64,000 nucleotides of DNA from a virus, in the IMG/VR virus record IMGVR_UViG_3300031963_000063, positions 21,487-85,486 of that record; one strand, written 5' to 3'. A program made the translations under genes and the position numbers. Below are positions 2,534-63,122 of this stretch, in pieces. Position 1 is the first letter of the stretch. Each line of letters begins with the position of its first letter. Below the pieces are notes generated by a model. That model was not told the origin of the DNA. It searched no databases and was given only the letters and a program-made list of their open reading frames with translations.

Positions 2534-3291
2534 CAAAAACCTGCTTCCATTTTTGCCATAATGTATTCTTTAACAAGTCCAGAACGAACAATGTCTTCTA
2601 CACCAAATTCAATTATATCAAAAGATGGCATTTTACGCAATACAGTCATAAAATCTACAATACCATTTCGTTCGTTAGTCTTCTGTAAGTCTGACTGAGA
2701 TGCATCACCACAGAAGCAAATTTTGGTATTTTCACCAACACGAGTGATAATAGAATCCAATTCGTGGAAGTTTAGGTTTTGAAACTCATCTACAATAATA
2801 ATTGCATTATCAAGAGTTGTACCACGCAAAAATGAAGTGGACCAGAACTTGATGGTTTCTTGTGATTTGAGATTTCCATAGAGCATCTCGAAGTCTGCAT
2901 CAGAGGGCATCTGGAACATATACTTCACCATATTCTTATAAGGAATCTGGTAAATATCTGCCTTATCATCGTGAGTACCAGGCAGGAATCCAATCTCTCT
3001 TGTGGCGACTAAAGAACGAACAAGATAGATTCTCTCGTAAGGTGATTGCTCATCAAGAACATCTTGAAGTGCATTATAAAGTGTAATAAATGTTTTACCT
3101 GTTCCCGCACAACCATAAGCAACAATATGCTTGTCGTCATTATAAGATTCAAAAAACTTTTTTTGATTTTCAGTAATTGGTTCAATATCAATTAGATATT
3201 CTGCACTCAGAGGTTTTCTCCTCTTCATTTGTTTTGCTGTCAGACCAACTCCGATTGGTTGGTCAATAGATCCTCTTTTCCGTCTTGCCAT
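2533..3291 (-). CDS. phoH: PhoH-like P-loop ATPase
   Basis: 252 residues. Walker A GCAGTGKT at 60-67 and Walker B IIIVDEFQNLN at about 165-175 are the PhoH pattern (the host form usually reads DEAQN). A basic N-terminus (RRKRGS) precedes the ATPase domain. PhoH is near-universal in T4-like cyanophages; it is an ATPase of debated role (RNA metabolism or phosphate stress) and no Pho box is evident here. It starts on the stop codon of the preceding 82-residue gene (TAATG), and its own stop overlaps the exonuclease start. Confidence 0.93.
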   Translation of the reverse strand: MARRKRGSIDQPIGVGLTAKQMKRRKPLSAEYLIDIEPITENQKKFFESYNDDKHIVAYGCAGTGKTFITLYNALQDVLDEQSPYERIYLVRSLVATREIGFLPGTHDDKADIYQIPYKNMVKYMFQMPSDADFEMLYGNLKSQETIKFWSTSFLRGTTLDNAIIIVDEFQNLNFHELDSIITRVGENTKICFCGDASQSDLQKTNERNGIVDFMTVLRKMPSFDIIEFGVEDIVRSGLVKEYIMAKMEAGF

Positions 3292-3539
3292 TAGATTTTC
3301 TTTACTCGTGAACCAGGTGCTTTTGATGCTTTTCCAAGAACATCATTCCAACCAGGATGTTTAGAAATTAATTTGTTTTGCCATTCACCAACCTCTCCAG
3401 GAGAAGGACAAGTTGATGGATCGGACCAATCACGGATCCAATCTGGGTTATCTTTTTTCCACTGGTCCCAATCGTGGATGCTCATTTCCACTTCTTTTTG
3501 TTCACCAGTTTTTGTATTCACTACGGGGTACGTTGGCAT
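3291..3539 (-). CDS. Small conserved cyanophage protein, FmdB-like N-terminus
   Basis: 82 residues beginning MPTYPVVNTKTGE, then a Trp-rich stretch (HDWDQWKKDNPDW) and a basic end. The opening resembles the first strand of FmdB-type zinc-ribbon proteins, but the CxxC pairs are missing (there is a single Cys), so zinc binding is not expected. I recognise it as a recurring gene of T4-like cyanophages with no established function. It overlaps the phoH start. Confidence 0.7.
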   Translation of the reverse strand: MPTYPVVNTKTGEQKEVEMSIHDWDQWKKDNPDWIRDWSDPSTCPSPGEVGEWQNKLISKHPGWNDVLGKASKAPGSRVKKI

Positions 3540-3563
3540 TGTTAGAAATTCAAGATAATTTAT

Positions 3564-4199
3564 TTAGATCCACTCAAGGGCGTCTGATACCGTTGGAAAT
3601 TGTTCGATAAACACTTTCTTACAATCAAGTGCAATATCCATATGCTCTCTCTGAGTTCCATTTGCAGAACGAAGATTGATATAATGTATCCATGACCTGC
3701 ATGATCCACTCATATAGATGCGTGTGGGGGTCGCCAAGGGCAATACAAATCTTGCACACTCCTTTGCCACCTCAGCATCTAGAAGTTGCTTGTAGAGTTC
3801 CATACCTGCCTTAAAATGGTCATTGATCTTCAACCACAAGTCTGCTTTTAGTTCTTCAGGAAGATCATTAGTGGAATTCTGACGATTCTTGGTGTCCTGA
3901 CGACGAAGTTCTGGTACAGGAATTTCCTCACCTAGCAAAGAAGAATCTGCATAACGTTGTGAAAATTCTTGGTATGTAAAACTCCTGTGTCGTAAAATTT
4001 GTGCTGCGATGCCACGATTTGTTTCGATCTCAAGAGTCATAAAAGACTGCTCAAAAACAGACCAATGATTATGCTTAATACAATAAGCAAGCAACTTGGC
4101 ATAGTTTTCGTTGTCTTGATTCGCAGGGTTGCTAACTCTAGCAACATACGCCATTGTTTTTTCTGCATCGGGTGTCACACTGATGAGTTTTACTGTCAT
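3564..4199 (-). CDS. thyX: Flavin-dependent thymidylate synthase ThyX
   Basis: 211 residues. Converts dUMP to dTMP using methylene-tetrahydrofolate, FAD and NADPH, feeding phage DNA synthesis. The ThyX motif runs from RHRSFT (70-75) through SQR (80-82); the usual RHRxxSxxxxSxR has Thr in place of the first Ser here. The C-terminal part around SCRSWIHYINLR matches the family. Length is typical. Its ATG overlaps the stop codon of the upstream 55-residue gene (ATGA). Confidence 0.93.
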   Translation of the reverse strand: MTVKLISVTPDAEKTMAYVARVSNPANQDNENYAKLLAYCIKHNHWSVFEQSFMTLEIETNRGIAAQILRHRSFTYQEFSQRYADSSLLGEEIPVPELRRQDTKNRQNSTNDLPEELKADLWLKINDHFKAGMELYKQLLDAEVAKECARFVLPLATPTRIYMSGSCRSWIHYINLRSANGTQREHMDIALDCKKVFIEQFPTVSDALEWI

Positions 4200-5871: not shown

Positions 5872-6467
5872 GAACGACCTCCCCACCTAATTTGAGGAAA
5901 TGCTTCTGAAACAATTTCTTTTGTAATTTTATATTTTTCTTGCAGTTTTTTGTCTTTAACCAGGCAAATAATTTCTGCTTCAAGAGGATGAAGACCTTGT
6001 AAAAGATTAATAAACATTGACTCACGCCGAATAGCACTCATACTATCGTTACCACCTTTGATAAAATGATAGAAGTGCTTGAACTCTTTACGAATTGTGG
6101 TTCTTGCTTGAGTATCAGATACTCCTAGAGAGAAAGAACCTGATTCATACATGGCACGAATCTCTTCTGTAATCTTAGTTGAAAGAGTTCCACTATGAAC
6201 GGTCTGATCATCATAACTTGAATAAGGAACTGGTCCATCAGGAAGCATCGTGATGATAGATTCATCAAAATTCCAAATCAAAAGAGCCCGAATTGAATCG
6301 TGGTTATATTTCTGAAGTAATTCTACTTTCTTTTCTTTAGATCTTTGTTTTGAGATTAAATCAAAAATTTCAAAAGCAAGAGGATTATTGGGAAGTTCTA
6401 CAATAGGAGTTTCTTTTACTGCCTTTGTTTTACTCGTCGTTGTCTTCTTCTGTGTCGTCGTAGTCAT
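5868..6467 (-). CDS. DUF6433-family protein (199 aa)
   Basis: Start chosen at ATG 6467 (MTTTTQKK), as upstream alternatives run deeper into the membrane-protein gene. The body has FEIFDLISKQRSKEKKVELL, then HFYHFIKGGNDSMSAIRRE and LHPLEAEIICLVKDKKLQ, the conserved blocks I associate with DUF6433 proteins of T4-like cyanophages. Function unknown. It overlaps the upstream membrane gene by 38 bases and is coupled to the downstream gene by ATGA. Confidence 0.7.
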   Translation of the reverse strand: MTTTTQKKTTTSKTKAVKETPIVELPNNPLAFEIFDLISKQRSKEKKVELLQKYNHDSIRALLIWNFDESIITMLPDGPVPYSSYDDQTVHSGTLSTKITEEIRAMYESGSFSLGVSDTQARTTIRKEFKHFYHFIKGGNDSMSAIRRESMFINLLQGLHPLEAEIICLVKDKKLQEKYKITKEIVSEAFPQIRWGGRS

Positions 6468-37645: not shown

Positions 37646-37653
37646 TATTTATC
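37646..37653 (-). promoter_or_regulatory. Late-type promoter box for the 2843-aa fibre
   Basis: GATAAATA on the minus strand, 8 bases upstream of the 23-base leader repeat, overlapping the stop of the 1868-residue gene. The same box-plus-leader order recurs upstream of that gene. Confidence 0.5.
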
Positions 37654-40600
37654 AAACTACGATAGAAGTAAAACTAATCTTAAATGTTGTTGAAGAAGAA
37701 CTTGCAGGGGTTGCCAGTAACCTTATATTTGCACCAGAAATATCCACATCATAACTAGCAACAGTTCCATTATTATAGACAGTTCCATATTCAGTCAAAT
37801 ATGCATTTGTACTATCATGAACTACAAGTATCTTTGTAGTATGGAAATTAGTTCCTTCAACTGCCTGAACAAGGTATTCGACAGAACGATACTGGTTTCT
37901 TGAAATAGTATGAATAGATGTTTGTGATGTTGTAGTTGTTGTTGCAGTTGCTGATCCTGTTCTGGTTGAAGTTGTATCATGAGTTGGTGCAGTTATTATA
38001 CCAGAAACATTTGCATTGGTGTAAGTTAAGTCAGTACCAGAGATTGTGGTAACAACACCAGTTACAATGTTTCCAGTAGTAGCATTAGCAGTCGTAAAGT
38101 TACCAGTAGTATAAGTAGCATTAGAACCACTAAGTGTGGTAACAACACCTGTTACAATGTTACCTGTGGTAGCATTAGCAGTCCCAAAATTACCAGTCGT
38201 ATAAGTTGCTGTTGTACCGGAAAGAGTTGTAACGACACCCGTAACGATATTACCAGTTGTCGCATTAGCAGTTGTAAAGTTACCAGTGGTGTAAGTTGCA
38301 TTGGTGCCACTTAAGGTTGTGACCAAACCAGTAACAATGTTACCAGTAGTAGCATTAGCAGTTGTAAAGTTACCAGTGGTGTAAGTTGCATTGGTGCCAC
38401 TTAAGGTTGTTACGACACCAGTGACAATGTTACCAGTGGTGGCATTAGCAGTTGTAAAGTTACCTGTAGTGTAAGTTGCCGTGGTTCCAGAAAGAGTTGT
38501 TACGACACCAGTTACAATGTTACCAGTGGTGGCATTAAGAGTCGTGATAGTACCAATGCCACTGGTGATTAAGTTGGTAACAACACCAGTAACAATGTTA
38601 CCGATATTGGTATTAGCAGTTGTAAAGTTACCTGTAGTGTAAGTTGCCGTGGTTCCAGAAAGAGTTGTTACGACACCAGTAACAATGTTACCAGTAGTTG
38701 CATTAGCAGTTCCGAAGTTACCGGTCGTATAAGTTGCCGTGGTTCCAGAAAGAGTTGTTACGACACCAGTTACAATGTTTCCAGTAGTAGCATTAGCAGT
38801 CGTAAAGTTACCAGTAGTATAAGTAGCATTAGAACCACTAAGTGTGGTAACAACACCTGTTACAATGTTACCTGTGGTAGCATTAGCAGTTCCGAAGTTA
38901 CCAGTGGTGTAGGTAGCAGTAGTACCACTGAGTGTGGTAACAACACCAGTGACAATGTTACCAGTGGTGGCATTAAGAGTCGTGATAGTACCAATACCAC
39001 TGGTGGTTAAGTTGGTTACAATTCCAGTCCTAATATTTGCTCTATCAATTGAAGCATTAGTATAGGTAGCAGTAGTACCTGATAAAGTTGTTACGATTCC
39101 AGTAACGATGTTACCTGTTGTAGCATTAAGAGTCGTGATAGTACCAATGCCATTTGTGATTAAGTTGGTAACAATACCTGTTACAATGTTGCCATTCGTA
39201 ACATTGATATTTGTAATGGTACCAATTCCAGAAGCACTGATATTTGCTACTGTTAATAGAGTCGAACTTAAAACTTCAGTGCCATTAATCTCATAAGATT
39301 TACCAACAGCAAGATTAAAGTTCTCACTAGACTTTAAAGCAGTATTAGCATGATCATATGTTAATGTATTATCAGGACCAATTTTAATTCCAGCCCCATC
39401 TGCTAATAAATCAGTTGTTGCTGTAGAAGCAATTCCAACGATAAAATCAGCAAGTTCGATTGTTGCAGAATTGATGATGGTTTGTGTTCCATCAACGAAT
39501 AGATCTCCTTTAATTCTTACGGCACCAGTATTATCTCCAACTGCTGCCGGATCAATAATAAGTTCTGAAGGGCCTTGAATTTGACCAGTTAATTTAATAT
39601 TACCAACTACATCTAATTTTGATGTTGGATTTGTGGTTCCAACTCCAAGATTACCAGAAACATAAGCACCACCAGTGACTTGAAGTTGTTGTGCCGTTAA
39701 ATTAGTTGTTGAAGTAATACCAAGAGTGCTTATTCCAGTATAATTTAAATTTGTACCACTTAGAGTTGTGACTACACCAGTAACAATGTTACCAGTGGTG
39801 GCATTAAGAGTCGTGATAGTACCAATGCCACTGGTGATTAAGTTGGTAACAACACCAGTAACAATGTTACCAGTGGTGGCATTAAGAGTCGTGATAGTAC
39901 CAATGCCACTGGTGATTAAGTTGGTAACAACACCAGTAACAATGTTACCAATATTAGTATTAGCAGTTACAAAATTACCAGTCGTATAAGTTGCTGTTGT
40001 ACCAGAAAGAGTTGTTACTAAACCAGTAACAATATTACCAGTGGTAGCATTAAGAGTGGTGATAGTACCAATACCACTTGTGATTAAGTTGGTTACGACA
40101 CCAGTGACAATGTTACCAGTGGTGGCATTAGCAGTTGTAAAATTACCGGTCGTATAAGTAGCAGTAGTACCTGATAAAGTTGTTACGACACCAGTTACAA
40201 TATTACCAGTGGTGGCATTAAGAGTCGTGATAGTACCAATGCCACTGGTGATTAAGTTGGTAACAACACCAGTAACAATGTTACCAATATTAGTATTAGC
40301 AGTTACAAAATTACCGGTCGTATAAGTAGCAGTAGTACCTGATAAAGTTGTTACGACACCAGTTACAATATTACCAGTGGTAGCATTAGCAGTTCCGAAG
40401 TTACCGGTCGTATAAGTTGCCGTGGTTCCAGAAAGAGTTGTTACTAAACCAGTAACAATATTACCAGTGATGGCATTAAGAGTTGTGATAGTGCCAATGC
40501 CACTTGTGGTTAAGTTGGTTACAATACCAGTCTTAACATATGCTAGATCAATTGATGCGGTAGATACGGTAGCAATACCAGATACAATAAAATTAGTAAC

Positions 40601-43258
40601 AATACCAGTTCTAATATTTGCAGTATTAATTGATGCATCAGTGTAGGTAGCAGTGGTACCAGATAAAGTAGTTACAACACCAGTTACAATGTTACCTGTT
40701 GTGGCATTAAGAGTCGTGATAGTACCAATGCCACTTGTGCGTAAATTAGTTACGATTCCAGTAACGACATTACCGATATTAGTATTAACAGTTGTAAAAT
40801 TACCTGTAATATAAGTTGCTCCTACACCAGAAAGAGTTGTAATAACACCAATATCTACAATAGCGTTAGTTACATTAGCAGTGTCAAAATTACCGGTCGT
40901 ATAAGTAGCAGTAGTACCTGATAAAGTTGTTACGACACCAGTTACAATGTTACCAGTGGTGGCATTAAGAGTCGTGATAGTACCAATGCCACTTGTGCGT
41001 AAATTAGTTACGATTCCAGTAACGATGTTACCTGTTGTGGCATTAAGATTTGTGATAGTGCCAATGCCACTTGTGGTTAAGTTGGTTACAACACCAGTTA
41101 CAATATTACCAATGTTAGTATTAATAGTTGTGAACGTAGATATTCCTATTACATTCAGTTGGGATGTGTTTAATATTCCATAAACAGTTGCCCCAGCACC
41201 TGTAGTTTCAAATTTTGTGCTACTGCCATGATAAAGTTGTACAGATCCATTCTCAGTAGCAACAACCATTGGTTGACTATTAAGAATTAAACTAATATTT
41301 CCACCATTAGATCTAAGATTTAAAGTTCCAGGTCCTTGTTCATAAATCCAACTATCAGTTCCATCATGATAAATTTTTAAATCATCATCATCACCTAAAA
41401 TTATTTGATCATTATCTCCCAATCTTATATTGCTTTGGAATGTAGCAACACCAGATACAGTTAGATTAGTTACAATACCAGAAGTAATGCTGGCAATACC
41501 AGTGGTTATTAAGTTAGTTGTAATACCAGTCTTAACATATGCTAGATCAATTGATGCTGTAGCAATAGTACCAATACCAGAGGTGGTTAAGTTGGTTACA
41601 ATACCAGTAACAATATTAGCATTTGTAATATTGGTAGTAGTACTATTAAGTGTTGCAATAGTACCAACACCAGTTACATTCAGGTTATTGGTTGTCGTTA
41701 AACCACTAGAGTTAATATTTGCTACGGTTAGAAGAGTTGAACTTAAAACCTCAGTACCATCAATCTCATAAACCTTTCCAACAGCAAGATTAAAGTTTTC
41801 ACTAGACTTTAATGCCGTATTAGCATGATCATATGTTAATGTATTATTAGGACCAATTTTAATTCCAGCACCATCGGCAAGTACATCTGTTGTTGCCGTT
41901 GAAGCAATACCAACGATGAAATCTGCAATTTCTACTGTTGTTGAATTGATAACAGTCTGAACACCATCAACGAATAGATCTCCTTTGATTCTAACTGATC
42001 CAGTATTATCACCAACACCAGCAGGATCAATAGTAATTTCAGAAGGACCACTGATTGTATTTTGAGTAATATTAATTCCTGTACCAAAATTACCAGTAGA
42101 AAATCTGTCGAAGGATGTTACTACTCCAGTTGAGATTATATTTTCATTTACTTCTACGTTACCAATGAACTTAGCATTCGTATTAAAAGTAGAAATACCA
42201 GAAACAATTAATCTATCGTCAATGAGTATAGTACCATCTGCAGAATCAATAGTTAGATTTCCGACAGTAGTATCAATTTCATTATCACCACTAATTCCTA
42301 TTTGAACATTATCAATTGTGACACCATTATTTGCATCTAAAAGTTGACTAAAAGTTGCTATGCCAGAAACAATTAATGATGAATCAATGTTAACAAGATT
42401 ATTATCCGAATCTAGGATTAAATCCCCAGTGTTGGTGTAAATTTTATTAATATCCCCAACACCAATTAAAATATTATCAATAAATGCACCCTTTTCTGCA
42501 AAAATAGTTTCGGCAAATGTTACTACCCCTACAAAATTTGAGTGCCCATCGATTGCGGCATTACGATTTACTTTTAAATCACCAAAAGTAGATATACCAG
42601 TTACAAAGGTATTACCAACAACATGAAGTTTTGACGTTGGGGTTGTTGTACCTATGCCAACATCATTATTGAGATTAATTCTTATTGCGTTTTGATTATT
42701 AGCACCTAATCCAAGTTGAATATTATCAGCAGCATTAATATTAGAAACTAAATTTTGATGCGAAAAAACTAAATCACCTTGTCCACCTGTTACAAATCTT
42801 ATATTACCACCATCAACTTCAAGAGCATATGCTCCAATTTCACCTTGAGTAAGACCGATCCCAACTTTTCCAGCAGAAGTTACAACAAATGGTGTTATAT
42901 CAGGATTTAAGCTATCTTCAACTACCAATGCTGGACCCGATCCAGTTTGAGTAATTCTTACAAGTTCAGAGCTGTTATTTCCACTAAAAATAGCGCCCCC
43001 AGAAACATGTAGTGGTGCTAAAGATAATGTTGTTCCTATACCAACCGAATTCAAATAATAAATCGACCCTGCACCAAAGTTCTCTGTCCAAGGTGTTAAC
43101 AGGGCAATGGTTGTACCTATTGCGACACCACCAGTGTCTCTCTTCCCCCATAGGTAACCATCATAAAAGTTAAAAGCTAATTCACCTAACTGTAAATCAT
43201 TTACTACAGGTCTCTTACCAGGTACAGCAGACCTTTTTAGTCTAATTGGAGTTGCCAT
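37652..43258 (-). CDS. Giant repeat-rich fibre or structural protein (1868 aa)
   Basis: Starts MATPIRLKRSAVPGKRPVVN with LGELAFNFYDGYLWGKRD, a virion-attachment type N-terminus of cyanophage fibres. The middle and end are arrays of near-identical 26-30-residue units (ATTGNIVTGVVTTLSGTTAT; ATTGNIVTGVVTNLITSGIG), about 520-1000 and 1270-1780, separated by two copies of the 110-residue cassette also present in the 2843-residue fibre. About 90 C-terminal residues are unique (beta-rich, no S74). Probably a repetitive fibre shaft; repeat number may vary between isolates. Confidence 0.7.
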   Translation of the reverse strand: MATPIRLKRSAVPGKRPVVNDLQLGELAFNFYDGYLWGKRDTGGVAIGTTIALLTPWTENFGAGSIYYLNSVGIGTTLSLAPLHVSGGAIFSGNNSSELVRITQTGSGPALVVEDSLNPDITPFVVTSAGKVGIGLTQGEIGAYALEVDGGNIRFVTGGQGDLVFSHQNLVSNINAADNIQLGLGANNQNAIRINLNNDVGIGTTTPTSKLHVVGNTFVTGISTFGDLKVNRNAAIDGHSNFVGVVTFAETIFAEKGAFIDNILIGVGDINKIYTNTGDLILDSDNNLVNIDSSLIVSGIATFSQLLDANNGVTIDNVQIGISGDNEIDTTVGNLTIDSADGTILIDDRLIVSGISTFNTNAKFIGNVEVNENIISTGVVTSFDRFSTGNFGTGINITQNTISGPSEITIDPAGVGDNTGSVRIKGDLFVDGVQTVINSTTVEIADFIVGIASTATTDVLADGAGIKIGPNNTLTYDHANTALKSSENFNLAVGKVYEIDGTEVLSSTLLTVANINSSGLTTTNNLNVTGVGTIATLNSTTTNITNANIVTGIVTNLTTSGIGTIATASIDLAYVKTGITTNLITTGIASITSGIVTNLTVSGVATFQSNIRLGDNDQIILGDDDDLKIYHDGTDSWIYEQGPGTLNLRSNGGNISLILNSQPMVVATENGSVQLYHGSSTKFETTGAGATVYGILNTSQLNVIGISTFTTINTNIGNIVTGVVTNLTTSGIGTITNLNATTGNIVTGIVTNLRTSGIGTITTLNATTGNIVTGVVTTLSGTTATYTTGNFDTANVTNAIVDIGVITTLSGVGATYITGNFTTVNTNIGNVVTGIVTNLRTSGIGTITTLNATTGNIVTGVVTTLSGTTATYTDASINTANIRTGIVTNFIVSGIATVSTASIDLAYVKTGIVTNLTTSGIGTITTLNAITGNIVTGLVTTLSGTTATYTTGNFGTANATTGNIVTGVVTTLSGTTATYTTGNFVTANTNIGNIVTGVVTNLITSGIGTITTLNATTGNIVTGVVTTLSGTTATYTTGNFTTANATTGNIVTGVVTNLITSGIGTITTLNATTGNIVTGLVTTLSGTTATYTTGNFVTANTNIGNIVTGVVTNLITSGIGTITTLNATTGNIVTGVVTNLITSGIGTITTLNATTGNIVTGVVTTLSGTNLNYTGISTLGITSTTNLTAQQLQVTGGAYVSGNLGVGTTNPTSKLDVVGNIKLTGQIQGPSELIIDPAAVGDNTGAVRIKGDLFVDGTQTIINSATIELADFIVGIASTATTDLLADGAGIKIGPDNTLTYDHANTALKSSENFNLAVGKSYEINGTEVLSSTLLTVANISASGIGTITNINVTNGNIVTGIVTNLITNGIGTITTLNATTGNIVTGIVTTLSGTTATYTNASIDRANIRTGIVTNLTTSGIGTITTLNATTGNIVTGVVTTLSGTTATYTTGNFGTANATTGNIVTGVVTTLSGSNATYTTGNFTTANATTGNIVTGVVTTLSGTTATYTTGNFGTANATTGNIVTGVVTTLSGTTATYTTGNFTTANTNIGNIVTGVVTNLITSGIGTITTLNATTGNIVTGVVTTLSGTTATYTTGNFTTANATTGNIVTGVVTTLSGTNATYTTGNFTTANATTGNIVTGLVTTLSGTNATYTTGNFTTANATTGNIVTGVVTTLSGTTATYTTGNFGTANATTGNIVTGVVTTLSGSNATYTTGNFTTANATTGNIVTGVVTTISGTDLTYTNANVSGIITAPTHDTTSTRTGSATATTTTTSQTSIHTISRNQYRSVEYLVQAVEGTNFHTTKILVVHDSTNAYLTEYGTVYNNGTVASYDVDISGANIRLLATPASSSSTTFKISFTSIVV
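38030..40720 (-). repeat. Array of 78-90-base coding repeats
   Basis: Long tandem DNA repeats encoding TTGNIVTGVVTxLSGTTATYT-like and GIVTNLxTSGIGTITTLNA-like units of the 1868-residue protein. Many units differ only at synonymous sites, making this stretch a likely hotspot for unequal recombination and for assembly error. Confidence 0.8.
39255..39590 (-). repeat. 110-residue fibre cassette, copy 2
   Basis: Encodes GPSELIIDPAAVGDNTGAVR through YEINGTEVLSS in the 1868-residue protein; see copies 1 and 3. Confidence 0.7.
41710..42070 (-). repeat. 110-residue fibre cassette, copy 3
   Basis: Encodes GPSEITIDPAGVGDNTGSVR through YEIDGTEVLSS in the 1868-residue protein, closest to copy 1 of the neighbouring gene. 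Confidence 0.7.
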
Positions 43259-46255: not shown

Positions 46256-47335
46256 TCAACCGATAGAAGGTGCAGTCAGAGCAACAGGAGTTGCTTCGGC
46301 AGCAGCAAGGTCAAGAGGAAAATTGTGAGCATTCCTTTCATGCATCACCTCCATGCCCAGACCAGCACGGTTAAGAACATCAGCCCAGGTGTTAATAACT
46401 TTACCCTGACTATCAACGATAGACTGGTTGAAGTTAAAACCATTCAGGTTAAATGCCATGGTGCTAACACCAAGAGCAGTGAACCAGATGCCAACTACAG
46501 GCCATGCAGCAAGGAAGAAGTGAAGTGAACGAGAGTTGTTGAACGATGCATACTGGAAGATCAGACGACCAAAGTATCCATGAGCAGCAACAATGTTATA
46601 GGTCTCTTCTTCTTGACCAAACTTGTACCCATAGTTCTGTGACTCATTCTCAGTGGTTTCACGAACCAGTGAGGAAGTAACTAGAGAACCATGCATAGCA
46701 GAGAACAGAGAACCACCAAACACACCAGCAACTCCAAGCATGTGGAAGGGGTGCATCAGGATGTTGTGCTCTGCCTGGAACACAAGCATGTAGTTGAATG
46801 TACCAGAGATACCCAGAGGCATCGCATCAGAGAAAGAACCTTGACCAAAAGGATACACCAGGAACACTGCGCTCGCAGCAGCAACAGGTGCGCTATAAGC
46901 AACACAGATCCAAGGACGCATACCCAAACGGTAGGAAAGTTCCCACTCACGACCCATGTAAGCATAGATGCCAATGAGGAAGTGGAAGACTACCAGTTGG
47001 AAAGGTCCACCGTTGTAAAGCCACTCATCTAGGGAAGCAGCTTCCCAGATGGGGTAGAAGTGAAGTCCAATAGCATTGGACGACGGAATCACAGCACCAG
47101 AGATGATGTTGTTTCCGTACATGAGTGAACCAGCAACGGGTTCACGGATACCATCGATGTCCACAGGAGGAGCAGCGATGAACGCAACGATGAAGCAGAT
47201 TGTTGCGGCAAGCAGACAAGGAATCATCAGAACGCCGAACCAACCCACATAGAGGCGGTTGTCGGTGCTGGTGACCCAGTTGCAGAATTGATCCCAAGTA
47301 TTCAGTTGTCGTTGTTGTGCAATAGAAGCAGCCAT
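46256..47335 (-). CDS. psbA: Photosystem II reaction-centre protein D1
   Basis: 359 residues, uninterrupted, no intron. Diagnostic segments: [60 protein letters not shown], and the C-terminus [16 protein letters not shown] with the processing site after Ala (DLAAA). The REWELSY segment has Glu at the position equivalent to D1 residue 130, the form usually linked to high light. Replaces photodamaged host D1. GC and codon use are richer than in neighbours, as expected for a host-derived gene. Followed by a terminator; a structured leader precedes it. Confidence 0.98.
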
Positions 47336-47355: not shown

Positions 47356-47452
47356 ACCATCAGGGAAATGGTGGAGATACTATGCTCCCCGCACCCTTAG
47401 CGGGGATATGAGAGACGTTCTTATACACCCATAGGTCTCGGTTAGCGGGTGT
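47356..47452 (-). ncRNA. Structured psbA leader, possible PhotoRC-type RNA
   Basis: Three hairpins on the minus strand before psbA: ACACCC...GGGTGT (47452-47425), CCCCGC-N7-GCGGGG (47405-47387) and ACCAT-N7-ATGGT (47372-47356). PhotoRC RNAs are conserved structures in psbA leaders of marine cyanobacteria and cyanophages; position and size fit, but I cannot confirm the consensus by eye. Confidence 0.4.
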
Positions 47453-47497
47453 TTGACAATATTACAGAATGTTTAAGTTCCGTAACATTTGTTTACC

Positions 47498-57824: not shown

Positions 57825-58865
57825 TTAATTAATTTGAGAGTTAATCCAATTGTAAGTCTTGCTAATTCCTTCTTCAAGAGATTGAGAATAATCCCAACCA
57901 AGTTTTTCACGAATCAAATCATTATTTGAGTTACGACCACGGACTCCAAGTGGACCAGGAACATGATTCTTTTCAACTTTCTTGCCAGCAACTTTAGCAG
58001 CAATATCCACAAGTTGATTGATAGTTACCATCTCTTCTGATCCAATATTCACAGGACCAGTGAAGTTGGAATCCATCAATCGACGAGTTGCTTCAATACA
58101 CTCATCAATATAAAGGAATGAACGTGTTTGCTTTCCATCACCCCACACCTCAACAATTCCACCCTCTGAGGGAAGTTCTGCCACCTTACGGCACATTGCA
58201 GCAGGTGATTTTTCTTTACCACCTTTCCAAGTTCCTTCTGGACCAAAAATATTATGATAACGAGCAATTCTAACTGGAATACCATAATTGCGATAGTAAG
58301 CAAAATATAGTCGTTCAGAGAAAAGTTTTTCCCAACCATATTCACTATCAGGTCCTGCAGGATAGGCATCATTTTCTTTCAATCCAGGATTTTCTGGATC
58401 CATTTGAATGTGCTCTGGATACATACAAGCAGATGAAGAGTAGAAAATTTTGGTTATATTTTTGCCACACTTATCATTTATATTTTTCACTGAACGAAGA
58501 ACATTCAAGTTGATTGATGCGGAGTTGTTCATAACATCTGCATCATGATCTCCAGTAAAGATATACCCAGCACCTCCCATATCAGCCGCAAACTGATAGA
58601 TCTCATCAAAGACACCGATATATTTAAAAGGTATAGATTTAAAATAGTTGTTTCCATATCCTTTAAATTCAACAATCTTATCTACAAAGGTTTGATCTGT
58701 TAAATCACCACAAATAAATTCATCTGCTTCTGTGACGGAATACTCTGGGTTTTTAAGATCTACACCACGAACCCAATATCCTTCGGAACGTAATCTGCGG
58801 ACCATATGACTACCAATAAAACCACCAGCACCAAGTACAAGTGCTCTTTTTGTATATTGACTCAT
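57825..58865 (-). CDS. GDP-mannose 3,5-epimerase-like SDR enzyme (WcaG family)
   Basis: 346 residues. Rossmann GAGGFIGS (12-19), SSSACMYPEHIQ with the catalytic Ser/Cys, and YGWEKLFSERL with Tyr/Lys. The block GIPVRIARYHNIFGPEGTWK, MCRKV, GDGKQTRSFLYIDECIEATR and HVPGPLGVRGRNS tracks plant GDP-mannose 3,5-epimerase closely, so GDP-L-galactose or GDP-L-gulose is the likely product. Gene 1 of the island, behind a structured leader and terminator. Confidence 0.85.
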   Translation of the reverse strand: MSQYTKRALVLGAGGFIGSHMVRRLRSEGYWVRGVDLKNPEYSVTEADEFICGDLTDQTFVDKIVEFKGYGNNYFKSIPFKYIGVFDEIYQFAADMGGAGYIFTGDHDADVMNNSASINLNVLRSVKNINDKCGKNITKIFYSSSACMYPEHIQMDPENPGLKENDAYPAGPDSEYGWEKLFSERLYFAYYRNYGIPVRIARYHNIFGPEGTWKGGKEKSPAAMCRKVAELPSEGGIVEVWGDGKQTRSFLYIDECIEATRRLMDSNFTGPVNIGSEEMVTINQLVDIAAKVAGKKVEKNHVPGPLGVRGRNSNNDLIREKLGWDYSQSLEEGISKTYNWINSQIN

Positions 58866-58889: not shown

Positions 58890-58926
58890 ATTATACTAAA
58901 AAAGGTGGGTTTATGCAACCCACCTT
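58890..58926 (-). promoter_or_regulatory. Terminator-promoter element before the epimerase gene
   Basis: 10-bp stem AAGGTGGGTT...AACCCACCTT (58926-58902) followed by TTTTTT. The loop supplies TTGCAT (58918-58913), 17 bases before an exact TATAAT (58895-58890). The start site would fall about 20 bases before ATG 58865. The -35 is poor (3/6), so the element may act mainly as a terminator or riboswitch platform. Confidence 0.6.
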
Positions 58927-59039
58927 CACATGCTCAGGCTCGCCACTTGCCCTTTGACTGGAGGCAAGAAACCAGGCGGGAGAGAGTCCCATCCGCACCA
59001 ACTGCCCTTGAGAGAGGCAGTAAACTCAAATAGGGTCAT
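58926..59039 (-). CDS. Possible 37-aa ORF in the GC-rich leader
   Basis: ATG 59039 with GGAG eight bases before; product MTLFEFTASLKGSWCGWDSL then PPGFLPPVKGQVASLSM. Notably GC-rich. It may be a real peptide, or a chance frame within a structured RNA; see the ncRNA entry over the same bases. Confidence 0.35.
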   Translation of the reverse strand: MTLFEFTASLKGSWCGWDSLPPGFLPPVKGQVASLSM

Positions 59040-59045
59040 ATTTGA
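58926..59045 (-). ncRNA. Structured GC-rich leader, candidate wcaG-type RNA
   Basis: Minus-strand hairpins ACTGCC-N9-GGCAGT, GCGG...CCGC and CTTGCC-N11-GGCAAG, much richer in GC than its surroundings, sit between a membrane-protein gene and a terminator followed by a WcaG-family epimerase. wcaG RNAs are described from cyanophages in front of such genes. Position, size and the terminator platform fit; the consensus itself was not checked. Confidence 0.4.
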
Positions 59046-59060
59046 CTCCACCACTTGGTT

Positions 59061-59288
59061 TTAAGAAACCAAGAAAAGTTGGGTTAACTTTGATATCTCG
59101 GTAATACCAAAGAATGCTATTAGAAATAGCACGTCCCAAAGTTTGAGTTTGATAGCAAAAGGAATGCCGAATAGTCCTCCAACAAACTTTATTATCAAAC
59201 CACTTTTAAAATCTCCCCACAACATAACTTGATAACCAAGTAAAAGGAGGAAGTTCCCAAGATACCTCAGGACACTTGTTTTAGACAT
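59061..59288 (-). CDS. Small two- to three-span membrane protein (75 aa)
   Basis: Starts MSKTSVLRYLGNFLLLLGYQ and has hydrophobic segments at about 9-24, 30-45 and 51-66. A conserved-looking type of small cyanophage membrane protein with unknown role. An 8-bp perfect inverted repeat (59054-59073, CTTGGTTT...AAACCAAG) covers its stop codon. Confidence 0.6.
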   Translation of the reverse strand: MSKTSVLRYLGNFLLLLGYQVMLWGDFKSGLIIKFVGGLFGIPFAIKLKLWDVLFLIAFFGITEISKLTQLFLVS

Positions 59289-59314
59289 AAGGGGTTTGCT
59301 CCCGACCAGGGTTT

Positions 59315-59587
59315 TTAAAGACTCTCCATGTCTTCAAAATCATCATCTTTTACATAACAAGGAACTCGATCTGGATCTAACCAACAAGTATAATCAAAGT
59401 CTTCCATAGCAGTCATTAATTGCATCTCATTATCACAGAGATACATATCACGATACCTACCAGTATAGGAATCTACTTTTTGAATACGACAATCGGGTTT
59501 GCCGTTGATTTCTAAAGTACCAACCTGAACATAACGATAGGGAAAACGTTCCATAAGAACGGTTGGTTTTCTTACAACTTTCATCAT
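59315..59587 (-). CDS. Small acidic protein (90 aa)
   Basis: ATG 59587 overlaps the previous stop (a second ATG follows at once). Contains YRYVQVGTLEINGKPDCRIQ and a Cys/Asp-rich end (CWLDPDRVPCYVKDDDFEDM). Compact beta-rich pattern; no family recognised. Confidence 0.6.
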   Translation of the reverse strand: MMKVVRKPTVLMERFPYRYVQVGTLEINGKPDCRIQKVDSYTGRYRDMYLCDNEMQLMTAMEDFDYTCWLDPDRVPCYVKDDDFEDMESL

Positions 59588-59796
59588 ACTTCGACTGCTT
59601 CAAGATCACTGGCGACATACTCCATAAGCATTTCGTAGTCGTCAAGGGGGTCACCAGAAAATACTACTCCTTCGTTTTCGTAGAAACGACGGACCTTTTT
59701 ATAAAGTTTCGGATTCTTTACATCAAGGTAGATTTCCCCGTTAGCAGCAGATTGAAGAGTGCTAACATCTTTTTTGAACTTTTGAATCAGAGACAT
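59584..59796 (-). CDS. Small protein (70 aa)
   Basis: Start chosen at ATG 59796 (MSLIQKFKKDVSTL), about 25 bases after the exact consensus promoter at 59847-59819. Contains IYLDVKNPKLYKKVRRFYEN and an acidic helical end (DDYEMLMEYVASDLEAVEV). Likely early expressed, function unknown. Confidence 0.65.
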   Translation of the reverse strand: MSLIQKFKKDVSTLQSAANGEIYLDVKNPKLYKKVRRFYENEGVVFSGDPLDDYEMLMEYVASDLEAVEV

Positions 59797-59818: not shown

Positions 59819-59847
59819 ATTATAAGGTGTTGAGACTTTTGTGTCAA
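59819..59847 (-). promoter_or_regulatory. Perfect consensus sigma-70 promoter
   Basis: TTGACA (59847-59842), 17 bases, TATAAT (59824-59819). A TGCCAGT...ACTGGCA hairpin lies between this promoter and the tRNA-Pro gene. Confidence 0.85.
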
Positions 59848-60417: not shown

Positions 60418-60484
60418 AATAGTTTTTCTCGAATGTTTGTTCTGATAATGCTATGAGAGCAATGAGTCTTTGAGTATCATTCAT
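60335..60484 (-). CDS. Small basic ORF (49 aa) coupled at both ends
   Basis: ATG overlaps the terminal oxidase stop (ATGA) and its own TGA overlaps the next ATG (ATGA). Product MNDTQRLIALIALSEQTFEK then an Arg-rich end. The overlaps argue for translation, but most of it is shared with the better-looking 39-residue membrane protein in another frame. Confidence 0.4.
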   Translation of the reverse strand: MNDTQRLIALIALSEQTFEKNYYAWYRIIFRRNPFRFINTLLRDKRRIL

Positions 60485-60981
60485 ACCATCTCCATTGCTC
60501 TTGTAAGTTCAATATAATGATTCATTTCATCCACTGCGATCTCTCCGATCTTTGTATCCTCTGGATGATCCCAGAAGTAGTCTAGATAGGTCTCTGTAGC
60601 ATGAAACTCAATGCCAGCATTCAGGTGATAAGCAGAAACGGGAGCATTAAAATAATAACCCACCAGAATCCAATAATAGATGAGAACCAAATGATAAGCG
60701 AAAAAGCGATCAACCCAGCGATCTGCTCCACCACGATACTCCATTTCGATGAGGTGTTCGGTTTCATTGATTGTTTGTGCGAAGTGCTCTTTCATCAAAT
60801 AATAGTGTGATAAATCTCGGAGACCTAATGACTCTTTGAGATGTAACACACTGACGAAAGCAAAGTATGGTGCTCTAGCGATTGTTTCTAGAACCCAAAA
60901 TCTTTCAATAGGTAAGTCACGGTATAAAAAGTCAATGATTGCTACCGTGACTGATAGAAATAAATCATTGAGTTTTTTCAT
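60481..60981 (-). CDS. ptox: Plastoquinol terminal oxidase (PTOX/alternative oxidase)
   Basis: 166 residues. The diiron ligands appear in order: LETIAR (31-36), NETEHLIEMEYRGG (72-85), EFHATETY (125-132) and DEMNHY (151-156), with a hydrophobic helix between (LVLIYYWILVGYYF). Oxidises plastoquinol with O2, relieving over-reduction when carbon fixation is shut down during infection. Coupled to the 55-residue gene before it (ATGA). Confidence 0.93.
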   Translation of the reverse strand: MKKLNDLFLSVTVAIIDFLYRDLPIERFWVLETIARAPYFAFVSVLHLKESLGLRDLSHYYLMKEHFAQTINETEHLIEMEYRGGADRWVDRFFAYHLVLIYYWILVGYYFNAPVSAYHLNAGIEFHATETYLDYFWDHPEDTKIGEIAVDEMNHYIELTRAMEMV

Positions 60982-62265: not shown

Positions 62266-62324
62266 CTATGTGTTGGTTTCAAGAAAGTGATTAAGACAAT
62301 CTTAAATTTTGTCATATTTGTAAA

Positions 62325-62411
62325 CGGAAGGTGGGAGAGTCGAACTCCCAAGGGCTTTAACACCTCAACTGTTTTCAAGACAGGTACCGTCGCCAATCGG
62401 TTTGACCTTCC
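62325..62411 (-). tRNA. tRNA-Ser(UGA)
   Basis: Type II tRNA on the minus strand: acceptor GGAAGGT/ACCTTCC with discriminator G, anticodon loop CTTGAAA (anticodon TGA), long variable arm around GAGGTGTTAAAGCCCTT, T arm GGGAG-TTCGACT-CTCCC. CCA not encoded. One mismatch in the anticodon stem base pair 27-43. Confidence 0.95.
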
Positions 62412-62420
62412 AAAAAGTCC

Positions 62421-62687: not shown

Positions 62688-63122
62688 TTACTCAGTAAAT
62701 GACCTTAACATCCAAATAAACTTTCCGTGTGCTTCATTTAAATCATCAAGAAGGTTAACTGTTCCTCTTGATCTTTGATTTTCTGCTTCTATTGAGGCAG
62801 AATCAAGTATAGTAACAATTTTTTTATGATCATCAAGCAAATCACGAATCATTTCCATTGAAGAAATATTTGTTTTTGCTTCAGAAACTTGAGAAACCTC
62901 TAGCACTCTTGAAAAAGAACTAATTGGTTTAACACCTAAAAATCTCATATGTTCTGATATACGATCAATCTCTTCTTGAACAGCAAGATACTGTTCACCA
63001 AACAAATCATGAATCTGTTTAAAGTCTTCACCAACAACATGCCAGTGATAAACCCACGTTTTCTGAAATAGTAAAAAGAGCGATGCTTGCGTATCACTCA
63101 GAAGTTTATATAAGGATTCCAT
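62688..63122 (-). CDS. Dps-like ferritin-fold protein
   Basis: 144 residues. YHWHVVGEDFKQIHDLFGEQ (25-44) with the His residues, and DRISEHMRFLG with Asp 53 and Glu 57, match the Dps ferroxidase signature (HWHVxG...H...D..E). Dps oligomers sequester iron and shield DNA from peroxide, consistent with the peroxiredoxin and oxidase genes. Slightly short for Dps (usually 150-170), lacking part of the N-terminal tail. Late-type box upstream. Confidence 0.82.
   Translation of the reverse strand: MESLYKLLSDTQASLFLLFQKTWVYHWHVVGEDFKQIHDLFGEQYLAVQEEIDRISEHMRFLGVKPISSFSRVLEVSQVSEAKTNISSMEMIRDLLDDHKKIVTILDSASIEAENQRSRGTVNLLDDLNEAHGKFIWMLRSFTE

Follow-up and report, generated by a model that had tools for sequence, protein, structure and literature searches.

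Does a wcaG RNA that lies directly ahead of a glycan gene control that gene, or does it belong to the genes on its other side? The wcaG motif (RF01761) was described by Weinberg et al. in 2010 (PMC2864571), who linked it to exopolysaccharide and high-light genes and proposed a possible switch, and it has since been a candidate glycan-gene riboswitch, a label repeated in phage annotation papers (PMC9602691, PMC9964418). The question arises in the window, the whole stretch of 64,000 nucleotides analysed here. The virus record that contains it is 85,486 bases long, and its closest relatives are T4-like cyanophages. An initial annotation had placed a GC-rich structured leader and a 10-bp terminator in front of an epimerase gene and had read them as a candidate wcaG riboswitch whose expression platform could be the terminator.

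The wcaG RNA of the window

Three features, all on the minus strand, make up this arrangement.

58932–59029 (minus): wcaG RNA proper (RF01761), comprising modules B and C; 101.9 bits, with covariation
58901–58927 (minus): intrinsic terminator hairpin of 11 bp with a T-rich tail to about 58896; −17.4 kcal/mol, z −4.9
57825–58865 (minus): nucleotide-sugar epimerase that opens the glycan island; PF01370, E 9e-35, PHROG 540

The match to the Rfam covariance model is full-length (model positions 1–98, E 1.9e-18), and its score is 2.4 times the gathering cut-off of 42 bits. GC content over 58932–59029 is 0.58 vs 0.366 for the whole window, in the top 0.1% of 98-nt windows. The structured block, its wcaG identity, the terminator (11 pairs, 58927–58901) and the epimerase gene behind it were thus all confirmed. 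Taken by itself, the leader has an unremarkable folding energy (z −1.7), as expected because the program cannot draw pseudoknots; the evidence for RNA structure is covariation among relatives rather than folding energy. Judged by the model match, the site is a genuine wcaG RNA of a marine-cyanobacterium virus.

Relatives were gathered in two ways. A blastn search of a phage collection gave 62 records, all of them cyanophages and nearly all with recorded Synechococcus hosts; 25 isolate regions with annotation were examined, and cmscan confirmed wcaG in every one. Pattern scans of viral contigs gave 321 hits, among them 205 unique full-length elements with flanks; since these loci are interrelated and were gathered through RNA patterns, the counts given below should not be read as independent samples. 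In every one of 23 isolate genomes, exactly one wcaG scores above the cut-off. A scan of host genome contigs with one pattern returned 14 contigs, of which a single one (L403, positions 6278–6373) holds a true wcaG RNA. It is labelled as a Rhodobacteraceae MAG (NZVE01000057), but is probably a mis-binned cyanophage contig because it resembles the locus of phage Sf-FS3.

The same bases had also been said to encode a 37-aa peptide competing with the RNA role, so that the block might simply be a small gene. Short frames (36–44 aa) do cross it in the window. Among the 205 relatives, however, each of the six frames is open in only 65–83, RNA lengths modulo 3 are spread 76/73/56, and no frame is conserved; what the relatives do conserve is pairing, through the compensatory changes that the initial annotation had proposed to look for. 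The peptide reading was rejected and has next to no chance of being right.

Two covarying pseudoknots within a modular array

The structure used in the Rfam search is nested, whereas our analysis found that the RNA contains two pseudoknots and is preceded by further units of similar kind.

58975–59029 (minus): module B, H-type pseudoknot GAG/CUC with ACUGCC/GGCAGU, plus the GCGGAUGGG..CCCGCC hairpin
58932–58975 (minus): module C, H-type pseudoknot CUGG/CCAG with CUUGCC/GGCAAG; terminal GUGGCGAGCCUGA
59033–59083 (minus): module A, stem UUGGUUU..AAACCAA, GUGG, then the GGAGUCA..UGACCC hairpin; overlaps the stop codon of small ORF 3
59300–59335 (minus): upstream pseudoknot-type module of the AGUC..GACU class; overlaps the end and the stop codon of small ORF 2

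The loop CCAG of module C pairs with a CUGG 5′ of the stem, and all four pairs can form in 197 of the 205 relatives, compared with a mean of 100 when the partners are shuffled. The identities of the pairs switch between CUGG/CCAG, CAGG/CCUG, CCUG/CAGG and CCAG/CUGG; the pseudoknot helix is 98.9% paired, with both-side changes in three of its four pairs. In module B the three bases before UUU are perfectly complementary to the loop in 136/205 loci (53.5 with loops swapped). Across six helices (24 pairs) in an alignment of 48 diverse wcaG sequences, covariation was 0.507 vs 0.198 for shuffled sequences and 92.6% of the cells were paired, and sliding the helix partners along the alignment destroyed the covariation signal. 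By these comparisons, the two wcaG hairpins are covarying H-type pseudoknots.

The modules 5′ of these two (about 59083–59033 and 59335–59300) were absent from the initial annotation. Module A is part of a weak 21.6-bit wcaG match at 59039–59118. The more distant module, for which an nhmmer search built on 114 seeds gave an E value of 1.8e-8 in the window, is parted from the rest of the array by a 75-aa ORF. The upstream units follow one plan: a stem, an A-rich loop, UGG and then a linker hairpin. By a simple pattern count, loci carry two to six units in varying order, some phages have a further unit downstream of the wcaG RNA, and the modules within one locus diverge strongly in sequence. From this layout, the Rfam model appears to describe only the 3′ part of a longer modular pseudoknot array.

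Such modules were also considered as a general decoration of gene ends, and this was rejected: in the complete S-PM2 genome, the first 200 kb of S-SKS1 and the window, the upstream-unit profile matched only the wcaG locus. A free pseudoknot search of the window returned only the two wcaG pseudoknots and repeats of a long repetitive ORF. The latter are a 41-nt pseudoknot-capable sequence present as four repeats (38561–40244, minus) in the very long ORF 37652–43258, and are probably just coding repeats. Phage S-H35 (L135) has one additional module at 2836–2903, upstream of its main array, and this module brings a GC-rich hairpin of its own.

A predicted promoter overlapping the terminator

Another element absent from the initial annotation lies over the terminator itself.

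58890–58918 (minus): predicted terminator-overlapping promoter with sigma70 consensus, TTGCAT-17-TATAAT

Its −35 box (TTGCAT, 58918–58913) falls inside the hairpin, its 17-nt spacer contains the T tract, and its −10 box is TATAAT at 58895–58890. This composite is common among the relatives. An intrinsic terminator stands 2–19 nt behind the RNA in 154 of 205 (limit 20 nt), and in 142 of these 154 a −10 box (at least 5/6) follows the T tract; the best −35 is at 17-nt spacing in 125 of the 142 and within the hairpin in 135. A perfect −10 together with at least 3/6 at −35 occurs in 101 cases vs 3.8 in shuffles, and in DSL-LC03 the overlapping promoter is the full consensus TTGACA-17-TATAAT. In the 250 nt downstream of the RNA, 153 of 205 loci contain a sigma70-like site (59 expected), with 128 of these sites in the first 50 nt. 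Promoter counts were compared with mononucleotide shuffles and, as a further control, with the antisense strand. In some loci, for example in S-CREM1, inspection by eye found the promoter kept before tRNA genes despite a poor T tract.

The composite is found at 148 of 187 terminators behind wcaG vs 36 of 191 other terminators, and several of these 36 look like wcaG loci missed by the core search. Composites away from wcaG include those of L290 (3903), L298 (4097), L392 (8775), L131 (4233), L145 (3753) and others; several non-wcaG composites carry GAGGGGCTTGACGCCCCTC hairpins.

Since a sigma70 promoter sits between the RNA and the gene, the predicted 5′ end of the epimerase transcript is at about 58883, past the RNA, and the wcaG RNA would by this prediction lie outside the 5′ UTR of the next gene. 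This bears on the leader riboswitch, or another kind of cis-regulator, that would control the epimerase operon and use the terminator as expression platform, as proposed by Weinberg et al. and by the initial annotation. Rfam classes the RNA as cis-regulatory, the RNA is strongly conserved and usually has a terminator close behind it, and the epimerase cluster, one of 34 next-gene clusters downstream, accounts for 86 of 205 next genes. However, besides the conserved intervening promoter, the closest promoter on the 5′ side of the RNA is that of a separate upstream operon, and 14 of the 23 wcaG-bearing isolate genomes lack any PF01370 epimerase-family gene. The RNA is still conserved in the 51 of 205 relatives for which the analysis recognised no terminator within 20 nt, often with a tRNA as the next gene. 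Nor was there a sign of mutually exclusive pairing between aptamer and terminator: RNA–terminator complementarity was 5.19 for native pairs vs 5.07 ± 0.06 when the terminators were swapped, and so small a difference does not support a switch. Hence the wcaG identity stood, the leader position and the terminator platform were not supported, and we regard a riboswitch of the epimerase operon as unlikely.

The RNA at the probable end of a small upstream operon

On the 5′ side of the array, the window contains a short unit of small ORFs on the same strand.

59819–59847 (minus): predicted promoter of the upstream operon, TTGACA-17-TATAAT, 12/12
59584–59796 (minus): small ORF 1; PHROG 552, no function assigned; ATG chosen inside a longer TTG frame
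59315–59587 (minus): small ORF 2; PHROG 481, no function assigned
59061–59288 (minus): small ORF 3, 75 aa; PHROG 2318, no function assigned; sits between modules

The promoter at 59847–59819, before the small-ORF operon, is one of two perfect 12/12 sigma70 promoters that the initial annotation had not listed; the other (59987–59959, minus) precedes tRNA-Pro. A sigma70 site of at least 11/12 lies 0.2–1.7 kb upstream on the sense strand in 154 of 175 loci, compared with 3 loci on the antisense strand and 6 in shuffles, and none of the 154 has an intrinsic terminator between this promoter and the RNA. The median span of the unit so delimited is 771 nt, most units contain one to five small ORFs, and the ORF 3 family is the largest upstream family (43/205 loci). 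The last upstream stop codon is usually inside the first module (median −15 nt), an overlap partly due to chance as the modules are rich in stop codons (UAA in the A-rich loop). Given the near-perfect promoter upstream and no terminator before the RNA, the RNA appears to end the small upstream operon rather than to lead the glycan genes. A separate small-RNA gene with a promoter directly before the RNA was tried and rejected, sigma70-like sites within 300 nt upstream being rarer than expected (29 loci vs 48.5).

HK022 put and the EAR element of exopolysaccharide operons sit early in their operons. A processive antitermination RNA of this kind would let polymerase that started at the upstream promoter read past the terminator into the glycan genes, which fits an RNA placed directly before a terminator in most loci and often ahead of long glycan operons. 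Unlike put and EAR, the array stands at an operon end, and it is conserved where no terminator follows; antitermination therefore seems to us quite unlikely.

Further upstream in the window are genes for a plastoquinol terminal oxidase (60481–60981, minus, PHROG 4235) and a Dps-like DNA-binding protein (62688–63122, minus, PHROG 3636). An Rfam tRNA-Sec match exactly at the cut-off (62324–62412, minus) is a tRNA-Ser (tga) according to ARAGORN.

A possible role at the RNA 3′ end

With both promoters and the terminator being sequence predictions, we favor, as the account that is probably though by no means surely right, that wcaG is the 3′-terminal part of a longer pseudoknot RNA ending the upstream operon and not an epimerase leader switch. 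In the comparison of relatives, the array trails a short early-type small-ORF operon with its own near-perfect sigma70 promoter, usually abuts or includes the last stop codon of that operon, and has an intrinsic terminator directly 3′, where the overlapping sigma70 promoter would start the epimerase or glycan transcript past the RNA. The array would then act at, or as, an RNA 3′ end: termination, or 5′ processing of a tRNA in loci where tRNA genes come next, would leave it as the tail of the upstream message. There it might either shield the message end from 3′-to-5′ exonucleases or last as a stable small RNA with some binding partner. Its strongly conserved sequence suggests a specific partner, which mere end protection would not require, and to that extent argues against such protection.

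Two further observations run against a role at the 3′ end. About 8% of the loci have an ORF a few nucleotides after the RNA with neither terminator nor promoter, and translational control is possible there. Glycan-type genes are also the commonest next genes, as a cis-regulator predicts, and the RNA may have a cis-regulatory role on read-through transcripts.

A more specific possibility, to which we give a small but real weight, is that the array is the product of one dedicated T4-like-cyanophage locus, a modular multi-pseudoknot RNA that is freed from an early operon's 3′ end to act in trans, for instance by engaging a nuclease or RNA-binding protein of the host as a decoy. In ToxI, tandem H-type pseudoknots are followed by a terminator, and the wcaG array shares this architecture. 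The type III antitoxins (ToxI, CptI and TenpI) are RNA repeats (PMC8860590), near-identical and in tandem, whereas the units of one wcaG locus are strongly diverged and joined by hairpin linkers. No ToxN, CptN, TenpN or AbiQ endoribonuclease gene is annotated beside the 25 isolate loci in their existing annotation. A decoy or an antitoxin-like RNA would suit loci in which two to six modules were recognised, their order varying and a terminator at the end. It would also suit the isolate neighbors, among them Phd/YefM-type antitoxin genes and, for S-CREM1, many tRNAs and an abiF RNA; the divergence of the modules, the lack of an annotated toxin gene beside the isolate loci and the lack of a cyanobacterial host match with the one pattern scanned speak against it, and we hold it to be unlikely. 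If the trans-acting reading were true, the name "wcaG" would reflect a misreading of the 3′ end of an array as a leader riboswitch.

The T4 gene 32 leader (PMC3014915) is likewise an H-type pseudoknot in a T4-like phage mRNA, but it is a single, gp32-bound pseudoknot in a 5′ leader, whereas the wcaG array has several modules and stands behind an ORF.

Returning to the favored reading, in which the array ends the upstream operon: should this anatomy hold, the search for ligands among glycan metabolites would start from a wrong premise, and wcaG would have to be studied within a 3′ end or a free RNA, with the full array included.

A probable conserved locus with variable neighbors

Like the wcaG RNAs of the 2010 description, the one in the window is a full-length match in a cyanophage that adjoins glycan-type genes; unlike them, it is here part of a longer array that would end an upstream operon and is separated from the glycan gene by a promoter. 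Its placement before glycan-type and high-light genes recurs, with the epimerase in the window and glycan genes, hli and psbA in relatives. Of the 23 isolates, 22 carry psbA 3′ of wcaG and in the same orientation, at 2–3.6 kb in nine and 12–33 kb in the others (for DSL-LC03 taken across the origin of its circular record), and at 11.6 kb in the window. Seven isolates have an epimerase close to the RNA, and in these psbA is at least 16 kb away; in 13 isolates talC is found within 3.4 kb upstream of wcaG.

The simplest reading is a conserved locus of small ORFs, the array, then a tRNA or hli, then psbA, with glycan islands or tail-fibre genes inserted behind its promoter–terminator. The glycan link of wcaG then looks positional, and on this reading the exopolysaccharide and high-light association of 2010 follows from position. 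The terminator-overlapping promoter would be a simple account of how glycan islands landing here are yet expressed.

Promoter-early stem-loop (PeSL) cassettes of T4-like phages, described by Arbiol 2010 and Comeau 2014, both cited in PMC4503421, join an intrinsic terminator and a sigma70 promoter in a variable region, and the window likewise has a strong sigma70-like promoter with a terminator stem-loop; in the window, unlike those cassettes, the composite comes with a conserved structured RNA immediately 5′ of it. The variable neighbors of wcaG (27 gene clusters upstream and the 34 downstream, 205 loci) are compatible with PeSL-type gene shuffling. The array could then be a recombination linker, intergenic DNA with a PeSL-like cassette in which RNA structure is secondary; small ORFs between modules and the varying module order would agree with this, as would the description of such composites as T4-like-phage shuffling cassettes (PMC4503421). 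Recombination of DNA would not, however, need the compensatory changes that keep the pseudoknots, and each genome has one locus, which makes this reading very unlikely.

In S-CREM1 (L134), positions 2971–3870 hold wcaG, tRNAs, manA, tRNA-Asn, an abiF RNA and tRNA-Gly within 900 nt. manA is placed there between tRNAs and not ahead of a coding gene, and when viewed by eye it did not clearly contain such modules. In the window, a PhotoRC-II RNA (47372–47464, minus, 74.5 bits) lies just 5′ of psbA (46256–47335). In S-SRM01 (MW015081.1), psbA matches occur in three pieces with stops at 207459–209450, which suggests an intron or other insert.
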